Positions 4,261 to 63,644 of a stretch of DNA of 64,000 nucleotides are shown piece by piece. The notes beneath the pieces were generated by a model that was given only the letters and a program-made list of their open reading frames with translations, searched no databases and was not told the DNA's origin. The stretch covers positions 41,218 through 105,217 of the forward strand of contig CAJOKE010000018.1 in NCBI GenBank assembly GCA_905235225.1, written 5' to 3'. Source of the DNA: Paludibacteraceae bacterium (lineage in GTDB: Bacteria > Bacteroidota > Bacteroidia > Bacteroidales > Paludibacteraceae). The first letter of the stretch is position 1. The number at the start of each line of letters is the position of its first letter. Position numbers and translations under genes: made by a program.

Positions 4261-4315
4261 ATCAGTTTCTAATCAGTTCCTGATCAGTAGCTAATCAGTA
4301 GCTGATCAGTTCCTG
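4261..4315. repeat. 11-bp tandem array, 5 units (atcagtttcta|atcagttcctg|atcagtagcta|atcagtagctg|atcagttcctg)
   Basis: Direct reading; units contiguous with no indels. Confidence 0.97.
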
Positions 4316-4384
4316 AACCTTCCCGATAAGTGACATAAGACTGACCTGAAACTGCTATCAGTATCCAATTATGCAATGCCATTT

Positions 4385-6294: not shown

Positions 6295-7278
6295 TCACAG
6301 GCTAAGCACTTGGAGAGCCTGCCATTTGTCGTCTTTGATGTCCTTTTTCTCCTTGATAGCTTTGGTGAGCGGCACATAGACCACTTCGCCGTTTTGTAAT
6401 CCGACCATAACCGACCGCTGTTCGTCCAGCAATGCCTGAACGGCGGCACAGCCCAAACGCGAAGCCAGAATACGGTCAAATGCCGATGGCGAACCGCCCC
6501 GTTGCAGATGACCGAGAATGGTGACGCGGGTTCCATATTCCGGATGGTTCTGCTCAATCAACTTGGCTACCGCCTGCGCACCACCCGGAATAGCATGTTC
6601 TTGTACGAGGACGATACCGCTGTTCTTATGCTTACGGCGTCCCTGACCGATAGCGGCTTCCAATTGCTCTTCCAATGTTGCGCGCTCGGGAATGATAGCC
6701 GCCTCAGCACCCGCCGCAATAGCGGCATTCAGCGTCAGGAATCCCGCATCGCGACCCATAACCTCGACAAGGAACAGCCTCTCATGACTGGTACCCGTAT
6801 CCCGCAATTTGTCAACACACTCCACTATAGTGTTTAACGCCGTGTCATATCCGATTGTTGAGTCGGTTCCCCATAAATCATTATCAATCGTTCCGGGTAT
6901 ACCGATAACGGGGATATTATACTCCTGCGCCAACAAGCGGGCACCGGTGAATGAACCGTCACCGCCAATCACAATCAGCGCGTCTATCTGCTCGCGCTGC
7001 ATCGTTTCAAAAGCACGCTGGCGACCCTCTGAAGTGGTAAACTCCTCACTACGGGCGGACTTGAGGATAGTTCCGCCGCGCTGAATAATTCCGCTCACAT
7101 CCTGGGTCGTAAACTCTTGTACCTCACCATCCATCAGACCTTTGTATCCGCGAAAAATCGCCTTAACACGGATATTGTTGGCAATAGCCGCACGTGTCAC
7201 CGCGCGCACCGCCGCATTCATTCCCGGAGCATCACCACCTGATGTCAACACTCCGATTGTTTGAATCTTATATTCCAT
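6295..7278 (-). CDS. pfkA: ATP-dependent 6-phosphofructokinase
   Basis: [23 protein letters not shown]...[21 protein letters not shown]. Confidence 0.96.
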
Positions 7279-7400
7279 AATAAAAATATTATTAATTACA
7301 CGCCTAATACCATTTCTTTCAAATCGGCGTGCAAAAGTACAACTAATTTTTCAAGTATGCAAAATTATATAGAAGATTGCACAATGGAAAACACACTATC

Positions 7401-7477
7401 CTCCCGTATGTCTCCCGTAAGCGAGTCGTAACTGAGTCGTAAGTGGCAGGTAAGTGGCAGGTAAGTGGCAGGTAAAA
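7401..7477. repeat. 11-bp tandem array, 7 units in blocks 2+2+3
   Basis: ctcccGTAtgt|ctcccGTAagc|gagtcGTAact|gagtcGTAagt|ggcagGTAagt|ggcagGTAagt|ggcagGTAaaa. Confidence 0.97.
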
Positions 7478-7575
7478 ATAAAGATACACGATTTTTAGAA
7501 TTGAGGGCAAGTCAGAAAGACTCACCCTCTTGTTTGTATATCTCAAGTTATGAAAAGCTTTTCAAGATTGAAGAG

Positions 7576-7649
7576 TAGCGGGGCCCGGGATTGAACCGGG
7601 GACCTCATGATTATGAATCATGCGCTCTAACCAGCTGAGCTACCCCGCC
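7576..7649 (-). tRNA. tRNA-Met (anticodon CAT)
   Basis: Reverse strand GGCGGGGTAGCTCAGCTGGTTAGAGCGCATGATTCATAATCATGAGGTCCCCGGTTCAATCCCGGGCCCCGCTA folds as a cloverleaf. CAT could in principle be the tRNA-Ile2 type. Confidence 0.93.
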
Positions 7650-13696: not shown

Positions 13697-13734
13697 TACA
13701 AAACATCTTGGATACGTAATAAGAGTATGTCAGA

Positions 13735-13847
13735 AACCGAATTGTGACATACTGAATGCGAACGAGATGCGAACGAGATGCGAACGTTAGTAGCAAAAAA
13801 GGAGAAAAGAAAGTGTGCCAATTGATTTTGGCACACTCTTTTTTTAG
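13735..13847. repeat. Dispersed repeat family II, copy 1 (11-bp array 13755-13787 plus hairpin)
   Basis: Close match to 29835-29945: accgaattgtgacatactgaatgcgaacgagatgcgaacg...agtgtgccaa..ttggcacact. Confidence 0.9.
13810..13846 (+). terminator. Rho-independent-type terminator after gcvH
   Basis: agtgtgccaa-ttgatt-ttggcacact followed by cttttttt; the upstream A-rich stretch suggests it may be bidirectional. Confidence 0.8.
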
Positions 13848-13870
13848 TATAATATGTGTGTGTATTTGGT

Positions 13871-24482: not shown

Positions 24483-26843
24483 ATGAATAAAATTATAAGC
24501 AAACGTTTCTTTTCAGACAATGTAGCGGAATTAGTTGTTGAGGCTCCCCTTATTGCCCGCAGTCGTCGGGCAGGACACTTTGTCATTGTCCGCGTGGACG
24601 AACACTCCGAACGGATGCCGCTTACAATTAGCGATGCGGATATACAGGCCGGTACAATCACATTGGTTGTACAACGTATCGGTGTCTCCACCGCTAAACT
24701 TTGCGCTATGAACGTCGGCGATGAACTCGCTGACCTTGTCGGACCTTTGGGTAAAGCAACGGATATTCGCAAATTCGGAACAGTTGTTTGTGCGTGTGGC
24801 GGTGTCGGTGCTGCACCTATGCTACCGATTGCACAGGCACTCAAAGCTGCCGGGAACCGCGTTATCACGGTTTTAGCCGCACGAAACAAAGACCTTATTA
24901 TTCTTAAAGACCAACTTGCACGTTACTCCGATGAGATTATCGTTATGACCGATGATGGCACTATGGGGCAAAAAGGTGTGGTTACAGTCGGTGTCGAGCA
25001 GGTTATCAATCGGGAAAAAGTGGATAAATGTATCGCTATCGGTCCCGCTATTATGATGAAGTTTGTGTCACTTACTACTGCTAAATACAATATCCCGACC
25101 GAAGCCAGCCTGAACACAATCATGGTGGATGGTACCGGAATGTGTGGAGCATGCCGCGTTACTGTGGGCGGTAAAACCAGATTTGTCTGTGTCGATGGTC
25201 CCGAATTCGATGCACATCAAGTCGATTGGGATGAAATGATGTCCCGACTGCGCTCATACAAATCCGAAGAAATCGAGGCTTACGAACAATTTAACAATGG
25301 CACTGTAGTCACGAAAGATGCCAATAAAGCTGCAACAAGGCTGCAACAAGGCTGCAACGATAACCTTAATTCTGCCTCCAAACCGACAGAGGGCGGTCGC
25401 GATGCCGAGTGGAGAGTTTCTTTGCGGCAGACACTCAAACCTAAAGAGCGTTCCGCAATTGAACGTGTCAAAATGCCCGAACTTGACCCTGCTTATCGTG
25501 CTACCAAACTCCGCGAAGAAGTGAATAAAGGACTAACGCCGGAAATGGCACTGCTGGAATCAAAACGCTGTCTCGATTGCGCCAACCCGGGCTGCGTCAA
25601 AGGGTGTCCCGTCAATATTGATATCCCCGGATTCATAAAACATATTGAAGCCGGCGACATTAACGGTGCATACGAGGTTATTAAACAGAGCAGCAGCCTG
25701 CCCGCTGTTTGCGGACGTGTCTGCCCGCAGGAGAAACAATGTGAAGCACAGTGTATTCATCTCAAAATGAACTCCAAGCCTGTTGCCATCGGATACCTCG
25801 AACGGTTCGTTGCAGACAATGCCGCTCAACCAAACAATATCCAACCTGCAAACGCAAGCAAAACAGCAACGAAAGTCGCAGTCGTCGGTTCAGGTCCTGC
25901 CGGATTGACTTTTGCCGGCGACATGGCTAAATACGGCTATCAAGTAACCGTCTTTGAAGCACTGCATGAAATCGGCGGTGTACTCAAATATGGTATCCCT
26001 GAATTCCGTCTGCCAAACAGTATCGTGGATAAAGAGATTGACGGACTACGCAAAATGGGGGTTGAATTCTGCAAAGATACCATTATCGGCAAAACTATCT
26101 CCATGAACGATCTCAAAGCACAAGGCTACAAGGCAGTATTTGTCGGTTCAGGTGCCGGATTGCCGCGCTTCATGAATATTCCGGGCGAAAACCTTAACGG
26201 TGTAATGTCCTGTAATGAATACCTCACACGTGTCAACCTTATGGACGCTTCCGATAAAACTTCCGATACGCCCTTACTATATGGCAAGAACGTAATTGTT
26301 GTTGGCGGAGGAAACACTGCCATGGACGCTGTACGCACAGCAAAACGGCTCGGTGCCGAACATGCAACTATCGTCTATCGGCGCAGCGAAGATGAAATGC
26401 CCGCCCGAATTGAAGAGATAAAGCACGCCAAAGAAGAAGGTATAGAATTTATGACACTTCATAATCCCGTTGAGTACCATGCGGACGAAAACGGTCGTGT
26501 TAATGAAGCCGTCCTTCAAATCATGGAATTGGGCGAACCCGATGAATCCGGACGCCGCAGTCCTGTTCCTGTTGAGGGAAAGACCATAACCATGCCTGTT
26601 GACTTGGTCATTGTAGCTGTCGGTGTCAGCCCGAATCCCCTTATTCCAAGAGCAGTCCAAGGACTGGAGATTTCCCCAAAAGGTACTATCGTAGTCGGCA
26701 ACGACAATATGCAGTCCAATATACCCGCTATTTTCGCCGGCGGAGATATTGTCCGAGGTGGTGCAACCGTAATTTTGGCAATGTCCGATGGACGAAAAGC
26801 CGCTGCCGCCATGCACAACTATCTTCAAACCCATCAAGACTGA
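24483..26843 (+). CDS. Fused sulfide/dihydroorotate dehydrogenase-like FAD/NAD(P)-binding subunit and NADPH-dependent glutamate synthase small subunit (NfnAB/GltA type)
   Basis: N-terminal FNR-like with MVDGTGMCGACRVTVGG; C-terminal VAVVGSGPAGLTFAGDMAKYGYQVTVFEA, VVGGGNTAMDAVRTAKRLG. Confidence 0.92.
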   Translation: MNKIISKRFFSDNVAELVVEAPLIARSRRAGHFVIVRVDEHSERMPLTISDADIQAGTITLVVQRIGVSTAKLCAMNVGDELADLVGPLGKATDIRKFGTVVCACGGVGAAPMLPIAQALKAAGNRVITVLAARNKDLIILKDQLARYSDEIIVMTDDGTMGQKGVVTVGVEQVINREKVDKCIAIGPAIMMKFVSLTTAKYNIPTEASLNTIMVDGTGMCGACRVTVGGKTRFVCVDGPEFDAHQVDWDEMMSRLRSYKSEEIEAYEQFNNGTVVTKDANKAATRLQQGCNDNLNSASKPTEGGRDAEWRVSLRQTLKPKERSAIERVKMPELDPAYRATKLREEVNKGLTPEMALLESKRCLDCANPGCVKGCPVNIDIPGFIKHIEAGDINGAYEVIKQSSSLPAVCGRVCPQEKQCEAQCIHLKMNSKPVAIGYLERFVADNAAQPNNIQPANASKTATKVAVVGSGPAGLTFAGDMAKYGYQVTVFEALHEIGGVLKYGIPEFRLPNSIVDKEIDGLRKMGVEFCKDTIIGKTISMNDLKAQGYKAVFVGSGAGLPRFMNIPGENLNGVMSCNEYLTRVNLMDASDKTSDTPLLYGKNVIVVGGGNTAMDAVRTAKRLGAEHATIVYRRSEDEMPARIEEIKHAKEEGIEFMTLHNPVEYHADENGRVNEAVLQIMELGEPDESGRRSPVPVEGKTITMPVDLVIVAVGVSPNPLIPRAVQGLEISPKGTIVVGNDNMQSNIPAIFAGGDIVRGGATVILAMSDGRKAAAAMHNYLQTHQD
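25327..25359. repeat. 11-bp tandem array x3 inside CDS (aagctgcaaca|aggctgcaaca|aggctgcaacg)
   Basis: Direct reading; 33 bp so in frame (AATRLQQGCN). Confidence 0.95.
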
Positions 26844-29636: not shown

Positions 29637-29767
29637 GAAAATTGACGATTATTAAGATTTTGCTCTCAAAAATCGTACACGACTCGCTTACGACAAACGT
29701 ACTCAACGGTTACGACCGACGTATTGCACCGTTTTTTGACAAAAAAATGTACGAATTTTAAGATTGT
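29637..29767. repeat. Dispersed repeat family I, copy 1 (TAC/TAT motif at 11-nt spacing from 29689)
   Basis: Aligns end to end with 39165-39296 (gaaaattg[a/c]cgattattaagattt...cggttacgaccg[a/g]cgtatt[g/a]caccgttttttgac...tgtacga[a/t]ttttaagatt). Confidence 0.92.
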
Positions 29768-29834: not shown

Positions 29835-29945
29835 AACCGGATTGTGACGTACTGAATGCAAACGAGATGCGAACGTAATGCGAACGGGAGTAGCTAAAAA
29901 GGAAATAAGAAAGTGTGCCAAACAATTTTGACACACTTTCTTATT
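29835..29945. repeat. Dispersed repeat family II, copy 2 (11-bp array 29855-29887 plus hairpin)
   Basis: accggattgtgacgtactgaatgcaaacgagatgcgaacgtaatgcgaacgg...gaaagtgtg..cacactttc. Confidence 0.9.
29909..29944. terminator. Terminator-like hairpin between convergent miaB and lipoprotein gene
   Basis: gaaagtgtgccaaacaattttgacacactttctt. Confidence 0.65.
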
Positions 29946-39164: not shown

Positions 39165-39296
39165 GAAAATTGCCGATTATTAAGATTTACCCTCAAAAAC
39201 CGGCTTACGGCTCACTTACGGCAGACATACGGCACGGTTACGACCGGCGTATTACACCGTTTTTTGACCAAAAAATGTACGATTTTTAAGATTTTG
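39165..39296. repeat. Dispersed repeat family I, copy 2 (TAC/TAT at 39206, 39217, 39228, 39239, 39250)
   Basis: Homologous to 29637-29767; TA dinucleotides recur exactly every 11 nt. Confidence 0.92.
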
Positions 39297-40698: not shown

Positions 40699-40775
40699 TC
40701 ATTTTCATTTGGGGTGCCAAAAGGCTGAGATAACACCCATTGAACTTGAGCAGGTAATGCTGCTAAAGAAAATGA
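40699..40775 (+). promoter_or_regulatory. TPP riboswitch (THI element)
   Basis: ggggtgcc...ggctgagataacaccc...tgaacttgagcaggtaatgctg core; P1 TCATTTTC/GAAAATGA. Confidence 0.95.
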
Positions 40776-42973
40776 AAAATCAACTTCCTCTTTTCAACCG
40801 GTCACGGTTGACTTTTATGAGTGCAATTGCACTCGCATGTGTGTCTGCAAATGCGCAGACGAGTAAGGACACCTTATCCGCTGATGATTTGACGCTTCAG
40901 GAGATTGTTGTAAGCGCACCTGTCATGCAGGTCACTAACAACAAACAGGAAATGAAACATGCAGAACTGAATCGCGACAACACAGGACAGAATCTTCCGT
41001 ATTTACTCAATGTAACACCGTCTTTAGTAACAACTTCCGATGACGGTCTTGGGATTGGCTACACCTATTTTCATATCCGGGGGACAGACCAGACACGCAT
41101 TAACATGACTATAAACGAAGTCCCCCTCAATGACGCGGAGAGCCAAGCCGTGTTCTGGGTGAACCTGACTGATATGGCAAGTGGAACAAGCAGTCTCCAA
41201 GTACAACGCGGTATTGGTACAAGTGCCAATGGCGGCAGCAGTTTTGGTGCCAGCGTAAATCTTAGAACATTGGACTCTGCCATTCCGGAAAGCGACCACC
41301 CGGGACCGGTACGTGCAGAATTGGATTTCAATGGAGGTATGTACAACACCTTCCGGGAGATGCTTAAAGCAGATGTTTATCTTGGTGACCGATTTGCCCA
41401 AAAAGGTGCATGGCATATTGGCGGACGGTTTTCAAAAGTGAACTCCGACGGTTACATTGAACGCGCTACATCTGACCTGTTCAGTTATCAGGGTGAAATA
41501 GGATGGCAGAACACCCAAACCGCCGTCACACTGACTGCCTTCGGCGGCAAAGAAAAAACATACATGGCATGGTACGGAGTCGATTATAATACGGCTTGGG
41601 GGATAAACGGTGCCAATCGACGGTACAACCCCGCAGGTGAATATATTGACCAAAACGGTAACATTGCCTATTATGATAACCAGACTGACAACTATCAGCA
41701 ACACCATGCACATCTGCACATCGGGCATCGTTTCAATGTACACTGGTCGCTCTCTGCTACCGCCCATTACACCTATGGCACCGGTTACTATGAAATGCTC
41801 ATGACCGACTGGGAAACATACCACGCGGATAACATCACACAAAAAGGACTCCGTAACCATTTCTATGGCGGTATCCTGACAAGCAAGTATGTACACGAAA
41901 AAGCAGATGTACAGTTCGGATTGGCATTCAACCAATACCGTGGTCTGCAATACGGCAATATCGACACCACCTGTAATGCCGGTACATTCATTCCATATTA
42001 CGAAGGTTTCGGTCAAAAAACGGATGGCAACATCTATGCAAAAGCCAATTGGCGCATATTACACCGCGGACAGGAGAAACTCAGCCTTTACGGCGATTTA
42101 CAATACAGAATGGTGGACTACAAGATATGGGGCGACAACGAGGAAACAAGTATGCTTGATATACCTGTCAATATCAACGTACACAACACATGGCATTTCT
42201 TCAATCCCAAAGCAGGGTTGACCTATGACAATCATGGACACCGCTTGTCTGCAACTTTTGCAATGGCACACCGTGAACCCACTCGAAACAATTTTGTTAC
42301 TGCAGCCGAACCGGTTGATCCGAAGCCGGAGAGACTGTACGACTATGAGTTAGGATACAGTTACGCCTCTGCAGGTGTTCTCAAAAGCGGATACGCAATG
42401 CCCTGGACGATTGGGCTGAACCTCTATTTTATGGACTATGACAACCAACTCATCGCTACTGGCGATGTCAGTTCCGTAGGATATCTGATTACCACTAATG
42501 TCAAAGATTCATACCGCACAGGTGCGGAATTTCAATTCGGTGTAGACTGGACCGGATGGTTTGCATGGAAAGGCAACCTGACATGGAGTCGCAATAAGTG
42601 GAAAGACACTGCGCTATGGCGGACAATTTCCTTCTCGCCGGATTGGACAGCAGCAAACATCTTCTCTTTCCACTATGCAGGATTCAATGCGGACTTGCAA
42701 ACGCTCGTTGTCAGCAAACAGTTTTTAGGCAATGATGAGAACCATGAGGCTATGCTGAAAGCATATACGGTGACGAACTTGATGATGACTTATGCGCTGC
42801 CATTCCATAAATTACACAACGCAAAAAACATACCTGACATAACACTTAAATGCCAGATAAACAATCTGTTCGATACAAATTATGTGAATAACGGCGGCAC
42901 AGACGGCACCTATGTATGGTTCTTCCCGCAGGCGGGTATCAACGTTCACGCAGGCTTTGCCGTACGATGGTAG
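40772..42973 (+). CDS. TonB-dependent receptor, probable thiamin-related uptake
   Basis: Plug domain (LQEIVVSAPVMQ..LPYLLNVTPSLVTTSDDGLGIGYTYFHIRGTDQTRINMTINEVPLND) and terminal barrel strand; directly downstream of the TPP aptamer. Confidence 0.92.
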   Translation: MKNQLPLFNRSRLTFMSAIALACVSANAQTSKDTLSADDLTLQEIVVSAPVMQVTNNKQEMKHAELNRDNTGQNLPYLLNVTPSLVTTSDDGLGIGYTYFHIRGTDQTRINMTINEVPLNDAESQAVFWVNLTDMASGTSSLQVQRGIGTSANGGSSFGASVNLRTLDSAIPESDHPGPVRAELDFNGGMYNTFREMLKADVYLGDRFAQKGAWHIGGRFSKVNSDGYIERATSDLFSYQGEIGWQNTQTAVTLTAFGGKEKTYMAWYGVDYNTAWGINGANRRYNPAGEYIDQNGNIAYYDNQTDNYQQHHAHLHIGHRFNVHWSLSATAHYTYGTGYYEMLMTDWETYHADNITQKGLRNHFYGGILTSKYVHEKADVQFGLAFNQYRGLQYGNIDTTCNAGTFIPYYEGFGQKTDGNIYAKANWRILHRGQEKLSLYGDLQYRMVDYKIWGDNEETSMLDIPVNINVHNTWHFFNPKAGLTYDNHGHRLSATFAMAHREPTRNNFVTAAEPVDPKPERLYDYELGYSYASAGVLKSGYAMPWTIGLNLYFMDYDNQLIATGDVSSVGYLITTNVKDSYRTGAEFQFGVDWTGWFAWKGNLTWSRNKWKDTALWRTISFSPDWTAANIFSFHYAGFNADLQTLVVSKQFLGNDENHEAMLKAYTVTNLMMTYALPFHKLHNAKNIPDITLKCQINNLFDTNYVNNGGTDGTYVWFFPQAGINVHAGFAVRW

Positions 42974-49354: not shown

Positions 49355-50773
49355 ATGGACAAAAAAACGCACAAGCCACTTATGAACACCATGAAAGAAG
49401 ACCAACACATAGAATTCAAACAGTCCTGGCGGGATGAATATCTGCAATATATTTGCGGCTTTGCGAACGCGCAAGGCGGCACATTATATATCGGTATTGA
49501 CAACAAGGGAGAGGTTTGCGGTATTAAGAATGCACATACATTATTGGAAAATCTCCCGAATCAGATTAATCAGACGATGGGATTGTTAGCTCAGGTCGAC
49601 TTGCACGTTGATGAGGAAAAAGAATATATCTCTATTCATGTAGAACCGAGCGACCAAGCCATCTCATATCGTGGCAAGTTTTATTACCGCTCCGGCTCCA
49701 CTTTGCAGGAAATGAACGGAGTAGCCTTGACTGATTTCCTTTTCAGGAAAAACAACACCACATGGGACCAATCTATCGTGGAAGAAGCCACATTGGATGA
49801 ATTGGATGCAGAATCCGTTGATTATTTCCTGCGCAAAGCTGTTGATGCACAACGCTTGGATGCAAGCGTGAGAGAATTGTCTCATATACAACTGCTCCGC
49901 AAACTCAAACTGGTCAATCACGAGGATCAACTGACGATGGCGGCACTACTGTTGTTTGGTAAAGATATTGAGCAATGGAACCTGATGGCATCTTTCCGAA
50001 TCGGACGTTTCCAACAGTCACAGGCGAATCTGCTTTTTCAAGATAATATCGTTTGTCCGCTTATCCACATGCCGGAAAGAGTATTGTGGACATTGCGCTC
50101 CCGTTACCTCGTTGCACCTATCCATTATGAGGGCTTGCAACGTATAGAGCCGCTGGAGATACCAGAAGATGCTTTGCGAGAAATGGTTTGTAATGCTATC
50201 GTGCACAAGAACTATTTGGGTCCGCATATCCAGATGCGGGTTTGGGATGATAAAATTGAATTGTGGAACTTTGGCGAGCTTCCGTATAACTATACAATAG
50301 AGAAACTGCTGCAGACGCATGAGTCTTATCCGCGTAATCCATTGATTGCGCAAATCTTCTATTTGGCTGGTCTTATTGAGCAGTGGGGACGAGGCTATGA
50401 AAAAATCCACGATGCTTTTGTCCGGGAACATCTGATGCAACCTACGTTTGAACAAGCCCGTGGTGGCATCTTGGTCACCATCCCTCGTGAAAAGTTTATT
50501 GCTATACAAACCGGCAAATCAATCGGAGCGGAACTATCTACGACACCAGATGACCAGACTACACAGAAAAGTGTACAGAAAAGTGTACAGAAAAGTGTAC
50601 AGAAAATAGTTGATTTCATTAGCGAGAATCCGAATATAACGACGCAAGAAATGGCTAATTTATTAGGCATAAATAGAAGTGTTGTAGCTCGTCATATTAA
50701 AACCTTAAAAGAAAAAGGAATTATCCGACGTGTCGGCCCTGATAAAGGTGGTCATTGGGAAATTTTGTCGTAA
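49355..50773 (+). CDS. AlbA_2 (schlafen-like) putative DNA-binding / transcriptional regulator with C-terminal winged helix
   Basis: EDQHIEFKQSWRDEYLQYICGFANAQGGTLYIGIDNKGEV; C-terminal NITTQEMANLLGINRSVVARHIKTLKEKGIIRRVG. Confidence 0.9.
   Translation: MDKKTHKPLMNTMKEDQHIEFKQSWRDEYLQYICGFANAQGGTLYIGIDNKGEVCGIKNAHTLLENLPNQINQTMGLLAQVDLHVDEEKEYISIHVEPSDQAISYRGKFYYRSGSTLQEMNGVALTDFLFRKNNTTWDQSIVEEATLDELDAESVDYFLRKAVDAQRLDASVRELSHIQLLRKLKLVNHEDQLTMAALLLFGKDIEQWNLMASFRIGRFQQSQANLLFQDNIVCPLIHMPERVLWTLRSRYLVAPIHYEGLQRIEPLEIPEDALREMVCNAIVHKNYLGPHIQMRVWDDKIELWNFGELPYNYTIEKLLQTHESYPRNPLIAQIFYLAGLIEQWGRGYEKIHDAFVREHLMQPTFEQARGGILVTIPREKFIAIQTGKSIGAELSTTPDDQTTQKSVQKSVQKSVQKIVDFISENPNITTQEMANLLGINRSVVARHIKTLKEKGIIRRVGPDKGGHWEILS
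50567..50602. repeat. 12-bp in-frame tandem repeat x3 (aaaagtgtacag)
   Basis: Encodes KSVQ-KSVQ-KSVQ in the linker before the winged helix. Confidence 0.95.
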
Positions 50774-63546: not shown

Positions 63547-63600
63547 ATCTTCCTTTTGTTTTAATCAGTTTGTTTTTGAATATCTTTCCTTTATCCATAT

Positions 63601-63644
63601 TAGGTTATTATTAGGCTATTATTAGGTTATTATTAGGTTATTCC
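63601..63644. repeat. 11-bp tandem array, 4 units
   Basis: taggttattat|taggctattat|taggttattat|taggttattcc. Confidence 0.97.

Follow-up and report, generated by a model that had tools for sequence, protein, structure and literature searches.

An 11-bp tandem array between tRNA-Met and pfkA is a recent, fused member of a clade-specific system of phased intergenic repeats in Paludibacteraceae

A short array of seven 11-mers, at positions 7401-7477 of the 64,000-nucleotide stretch of Paludibacteraceae DNA analyzed here (the window), is a recent, fused member of a real, clade-specific system of intergenic repeats that share a strict 11-bp period. As the best reading, to which we give a probability of about 0.45, we propose that such arrays are upstream rows of helix-phased protein-binding sites, homogenized within each species.

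A preliminary description, made from the letters of the window alone, had reported seven units in blocks of two, two and three, with GTA at a constant position, lying between tRNA-Met and pfkA. All of this was recovered exactly where it had been placed: GTA stands at one fixed position in all seven units as read from the sequence. The array and its setting are as follows.

7401-7411, plus strand: unit 1, ctcccGTAtgt (sequence)
7412-7422, plus strand: unit 2, ctcccGTAagc (sequence)
7423-7433, plus strand: unit 3, gagtcGTAact (sequence)
7434-7444, plus strand: unit 4, gagtcGTAagt (sequence)
7445-7455 and 7456-7466, plus strand: units 5 and 6, ggcagGTAagt each (sequence)
7467-7477, plus strand: unit 7, ggcagGTAaaa (sequence)
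7401..7444, plus strand: blocks 1 and 2, four units of the GTAAGCGAGTC family, recurring in this order at ~20 other genome loci
7445..7477, plus strand: block 3, three units of the GGTAAGTGGCA family, joined in phase (sequence; six other loci in the stretches read)
6295..7278, minus strand: pfkA (6-phosphofructokinase), the gene downstream of the array on the minus strand (ORF)
7332..7363, minus strand: pfkA promoter-like site, a perfect match to TTTG(N20)TAnnTTTG (pattern match)
7575..7649, minus strand: tRNA-Met(CAT), on the other side of the array (ARAGORN; Rfam RF00005, 70 bits)

The Bacteroidota promoter consensus is TTTG-TAnnTTTG, and the sites that we call promoter-like are so by pattern alone. 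The array lies ~70-145 bp upstream of the pfkA -7 box, its near edge ~70 bp from the end of the box. The pfkA protein is 73-95% identical to those of relatives in Paludibacteraceae, and its nearest named relatives come from rumen and hindgut MAGs labeled Paludibacteraceae or Bacteroidales.

Both unit types of the array are dispersed in this genome. The GTAAGCGAGTC family occupies ~20-25 loci, of which ~14 match tcccGTAwnnntcccGTAAGCGAGTCGTAA exactly and several more near-exactly, and the outer flanks of its copies fall into a few recurring types. In four relatives, the pattern of this family gave no more matches than a control pattern. The GGTAAGTGGCA family was found at ~7 loci in the window's genome, its tandem form was absent from 40 congeners, and viral contigs contained no exact match to either family. 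By inspection, the neighbors of both families are housekeeping genes, with no obvious common function among the protein starts read. Since the switch from ccc-GTA to gagtc-GTA stands ready-made at ~20 other loci, and since ggcag-GTA is a second dispersed family, the blocks represent a fusion of families that already existed. The ccc-to-gagtc switch is older than the 7401-7477 array, to which the ggcag block was joined, and the array is an in-phase fusion of two dispersed families private to the species.

The stepwise duplication and diversification proposed in the preliminary description therefore need revision: the fixed phase and a turnover of units with constraint on some positions stand, but diversification in place does not, because the block switch pre-exists elsewhere and the last block belongs to another family. 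The related motif that had been seen at 29.7 and 39.2 kb is real and corresponds to two further copies of the GTAAGCGAGTC family, both found by family search.

29677..29691, minus strand: GTAAGCGAGTC family copy, core, with conserved outer flanks
39205..39235 (family match at 39205-39219), minus strand: GTAAGCGAGTC family copy, GTAAGTGAGCCGTAA variant, with outer flanks as at 29677..29691

GTA proved to be the core of the GTAAGCGAGTC and GGTAAGTGGCA families only; it holds within the two families of the array but not across all array families, as a formal test of 50 distinct units gave no convincing trinucleotide common to all. A universal GGTnA core, suggested by eye, was likewise rejected, with GGT reaching only z 1.9 over the 50 units.

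Across 1.18 Mb of the window's genome, 70 period-11 arrays were intergenic vs. 2 coding, labels that are approximate because the gene calls came from a simple script, while for nearly all periods other than 11 and its multiples the intergenic count was only 0-5. In 112.7 kb of intergenic DNA, we counted 68 period-11 arrays, compared to 0 in each of 8 dinucleotide shuffles. Within the window, among periods 4-40, only 11 and its multiples stand out, plus one 12-mer. The dominance of period 11 in the window and its absence from shuffled intergenic DNA place the 7401-7477 array far beyond chance. Scaling up from 1.18 Mb suggests ~130 period-11 arrays in the whole genome. Sister arrays of other families in the window include the following.

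4261..4316, plus strand: ATCAGTnnCTr x5, with further 11-mers flanking in phase
13756..13786, plus strand: ATGCGAACGnn x3, in a dispersed element with a terminator hairpin
29855..29887, plus strand: ATGCGAACGnn x3, second window copy of this element
63598..63642, plus strand: TATTAGGTTAT x4, member of the [CCTAATAATAn] family

The congener G011 carries 39 intergenic and 0 coding period-11 arrays, along with some of periods 7 and 8. Period-11 arrays occur at many Paludibacteraceae loci and only once in outgroup phyla, and they were not found in the sampled Parabacteroides, Paludibacter and other Bacteroidales families. The window's genome is 83% complete, and absences from it are provisional. 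Period-7 arrays provide a useful comparison. The window's genome has 3 of them in 1.18 Mb; in relatives, 33 were intergenic and 21 coding (21/54 coding), against 33 and 1 for period 11 (1/34 coding). Because period-7 arrays enter genes freely and period-11 arrays do not, a common slippage origin is a poor fit for the 11-mers.

Several other repeats were observed along the way. One of the two coding period-11 arrays is GCTGCAACAAG x2.7 at window positions 25322-25358, within an 800-residue reading frame, and a perfect 12-bp tandem repeat, ACAGAAAAGTGT x3.7 at 50563-50606, lies within a long ORF, where it would encode a four-residue repeat. Related species have heptamer tandem repeats within coding sequence (L066:9853-9882; L112:3501-3530; and L073 upstream of pfkA, ~2300-2600); one heptamer occupies several stretches of the gene next to pfkA, which we take to be ispH from the way it reads. 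In two congeners, arrays built on CTAGG advance in steps of 9 bp, with a spacer that varies between units (L254:3655-3756, L255:4333-4399). The window also contains a TPP riboswitch (40700-40787, plus strand; above the Rfam gathering score).

We then compared orthologous loci between species. In the three nearest congeners, tRNA-Met adjoins metG (80-81% identical), and neither the array nor pfkA is found beside it, which indicates that the 7401-7477 array is recent. The pfkA-tRNA-Met gene order is not kept in relatives, whose pfkA has other neighbors and, in some, unrelated 11-mer arrays upstream. The preliminary description had held that orthologues lacking a conserved phase or a GTA core would speak against it; this is largely what was seen at tRNA-Met in the three nearest relatives, whereas at loci other than tRNA-Met/pfkA, orthologous arrays keep position and phase while their units change. 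Some of these arrays are older than the one at 7401-7477. In the cvpA-folK gap (cvpA and folK, like alaS below, are presumably these genes, the names having been assigned by reading the sequence), TTATTAGGnTA units stand in the window's genome and ATTATTGGACT units in G098, different but related, with place, phase and step equal. Two arrays that are orthologous between G174 and G176, one lying upstream of alaS, are ~92-95% identical by manual count, while the gaps flanking them are far more diverged, with many indels. Read from sequence, these cases point to units that change in concert with place and phase retained. Elsewhere, arrays have been gained: four relatives have none in the gap that corresponds to the one at 13.7 kb, and the array at 4.2 kb (4261..4316) is missing from the short gap that is its orthologue in G173. 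Empty-site alignment showed a replaced gap and no clear target-site duplication.

In G174 and G176, tRNA-Met adjoins DNA that ends at pckA in the window's genome, where a second GTAAGCGAGTC copy lies 204 bp past pckA, oriented as expected if two copies had recombined. The two copies, L035:4556-4801 and window 7401-7575, stand in matching orientation at both ends of the pckA/tRNA-Met rearrangement relative to G174 and G176. This is suggestive of recombination between them but does not prove it.

Variation within units is uneven. Over 45 AACCGAAnGAT units, one position varies (C/G/T) and the other ten are invariant; eight positions never vary over 60 AATAnCCTAAT units; and nearly all variation in 61 ATGCGAACGnn units falls in the last two bases. 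New alleles recurred on the same positions with P 0.04 to 0.005, depending on the assumed transition bias. The evidence for constraint inside units is nevertheless modest, because homogenization between arrays also thins variation.

Placement relative to promoter-like TTTG-TAnnTTTG sites is also uneven. Arrays lay upstream in 42/47 cases, compared to 32.7 expected had they been placed at random within their gaps (P 0.0004). Among these array/promoter pairs, 32/47 fell 45-220 bp upstream of the -7 box against 16.1 expected, with 0/5000 trials as high, in a bin picked after the distances were seen; in G011, the enrichment in this bin was not significant (9 vs. 7.4 expected). Counting both sides, 42 arrays were upstream and 4 downstream of promoter-like sites here, and 22 and 2 in G011. 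The ATGCGAACG and TTGTATGG families prefer the 3' ends of genes.

Two elements that carry arrays have features of their own. In the ATGCGAACGnn element (window 13700-13850 and ~25 other genome loci), the outer arm GGTGTRTCAAAA is able to base-pair with the 3' arm of the element's terminator hairpin, TTTTGACACAC; dispersed and bearing both a terminator and an internal array, the element resembles an attenuator or a small mobile element. A GC-rich hairpin element, GGAGTGCGTTCCGTCGCACTCC, was found at L037 (minus strand), L180, L208, L218 and L369 and at L071:9700-9810; it is common to this genome and another species, and the 11-mer arrays attached to it differ in their units.

One turn of the DNA helix is about 11 bp. 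The 11-bp step, the strict phase, the near-exclusion from genes, the uneven variation and the upstream position together favor rows of sites at which proteins bind one face of the DNA. The 7401-7477 array belongs to a class of intergenic arrays that is found across the genus and keeps strictly to an 11-bp period, and it stands upstream of the putative pfkA core promoter; accepting this reading, it would offer a row of binding sites, one per helix turn, on one DNA face. A sequence-specific DNA-binding protein would load side by side on the units and, once bound, might influence the neighboring promoter or local DNA shape. New arrays would come from array elements already present, through insertion into intergenic DNA or recombination with it, and units would be homogenized within each species. 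Protein binding, an action on transcription and the way in which copies move are what we infer. Array sequence changes between species with the step and sometimes the place kept, probably as proteins bind side by side. Against this reading stand the 3'-end preference of two families, an alaS array downstream of a promoter-like site, the promoter-distance bin that was picked post hoc and is not borne out in G011, and the lack of an evident common function among neighboring genes, as well as the fact that concerted evolution alone could thin out unit variation and that no binder was found: the 83%-complete genome has no RHH_1 protein, although diverged ParR proteins could be missed, and only one MerR_1 match, in a 119-residue open frame.

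That the arrays are instead non-functional dispersed minisatellites, arising from replication slippage or unequal exchange, carried to new loci by ectopic recombination or small mobile elements, homogenized, and surviving where they are harmless, at intergenic sites distant from promoters, is quite possible, though we doubt it. In favor of this, the families are private to a species, have multiple copies and show conserved outer flanks, no array stands in the orthologue of the 13.7 kb gap in relatives or, in G173, in that of the 4.2 kb gap, and the GTAAGCGAGTC copies at both ends of the pckA/tRNA-Met rearrangement are as expected of recombining repeats; simple tolerance would also fit the avoidance of core promoters and coding DNA. 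What slippage leaves without explanation is why period 11 alone prevails over many unrelated units. Moreover, two species retain arrays of the same period at an orthologous site, conservation is higher in arrays than in their flanks, and the period-7 arrays of the same clade, likelier slippage products, do enter genes.

Action at the RNA level seems unlikely to us. Here, transcribed arrays would serve as repeated, single-stranded sites recognized by an RNA-binding protein, or as parts of leaders or terminators, which agrees with the ATGCGAACG family lying directly before terminator hairpins at many loci, with sister-species arrays at alaS ~100 bp downstream of a promoter-like site, and with the single orientation of the ACTGGGTGAT family of G011 relative to co-directional genes. 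However, most arrays lie upstream, not downstream, of promoter-like sites, base composition shows no significant strand bias (P 0.06 and 0.5), and the 7401-7477 array has no folding above shuffles (z -0.15 and -0.62) and no Rfam match even at E up to 1. A related idea, that pyrimidine-C dinucleotides every 11 nt capture Rho downstream of tRNA-Met on the minus strand (rut sites), was prompted by the minus strand of the array, which follows a tRNA gene and is periodic and rich in C; we reject it as highly improbable, since the sense strand of arrays between co-directional genes is C-poor and G-rich relative to the rest of their own gaps (C 0.154 vs. 0.197, G 0.223 vs. 0.197), the opposite of rut.

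If the arrays are bound by protein, as we favor, they would amount to a large uncharacterized layer of DNA organization or regulation in abundant uncultured rumen bacteria and a clean case of site sequence changing genome-wide with spacing frozen. A bolder version, which we regard as rather improbable, is a clade-wide regulatory or chromosome-organizing system in which 11-bp arrays of fixed geometry at many promoters are read by rapidly changing DNA-binding proteins, the sites turning over genome-wide while the architecture stays constant; if true, it would be the bacterial counterpart of co-evolving satellite or hotspot systems. Even if the arrays are neutral, the multiplication of so many unrelated units at a single exact period calls for a mechanism that measures 11 bases, which is more than ordinary slippage can offer. 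In practice, assemblies are likely to break, and recombination to occur, at such arrays.

Among known systems, long simple sequence repeats of 6-11 bp are over-represented in the intergenic DNA of a few prokaryotes, and the accessible part of that survey describes no single-period, multi-family, phased system and does not mention the present clade (PMC4060949). A literature search found no paper linking Paludibacteraceae with tandem repeats, and the top matches of a search on 11-bp repeats and Bacteroidales did not describe such arrays. REP/REPIN elements with their RAYTs, and MITEs, are short, dispersed, species-specific and intergenic like the arrays here, and complementary outer ends were seen by inspection in the ATGCGAACG element and one GGTAAGTGGCA copy. 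In contrast to REP/REPINs, tandem 11-mers stand at the center, the 7401-7477 array has no palindromic unit, and Y1_Tnp, the RAYT-type transposase, had no match in the 83%-complete genome.

Two systems share the 11-bp step. ParR of plasmid R1 binds the 11-bp direct-repeat arrays of parC next to a promoter (PMC9426499), whereas the arrays here stand at over a hundred estimated chromosomal sites, with no parM/parR neighbors at the loci inspected. CarH operators are head-to-tail tandem 11-bp repeats near promoters, bound on one DNA face (PMC9304148), and so set a precedent for the binding proposed here. The period is the same here, but TnnACA (motif nnnnTnnACAn) is absent from GTAAGCGAGTC and GGTAAGTGGCA units and their complements, and CarH operators are single loci that overlap the promoter, in contrast to arrays at many loci; the sole MerR_1 match in the 83%-complete genome is too short to hold the B12-binding domain that CarH joins to its MerR domain. 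The arrays belong to neither the CarH operators nor the parC/ParR system.

Heptamer STRRs of cyanobacteria, Xanthomonas (GGGAATC) and Beggiatoaceae/Bacteroidetes (TAACTGA) are genome-wide, mainly intergenic and of fixed period, and in related species some occupy the space between the same genes, though with varying length and sequence (PMC4692102, PMC4679880). The arrays here resemble them in occupying many loci, mainly intergenic ones, with a fixed unit length, and differ from them in the 11-bp unit, the many unrelated families per genome, the species-private units and the near-exclusion from coding DNA; by inspection, they are not G-quadruplex formers. Heptamer STRRs are the closest genomic parallel to the arrays described here, and CarH operators are the closest biochemical one.
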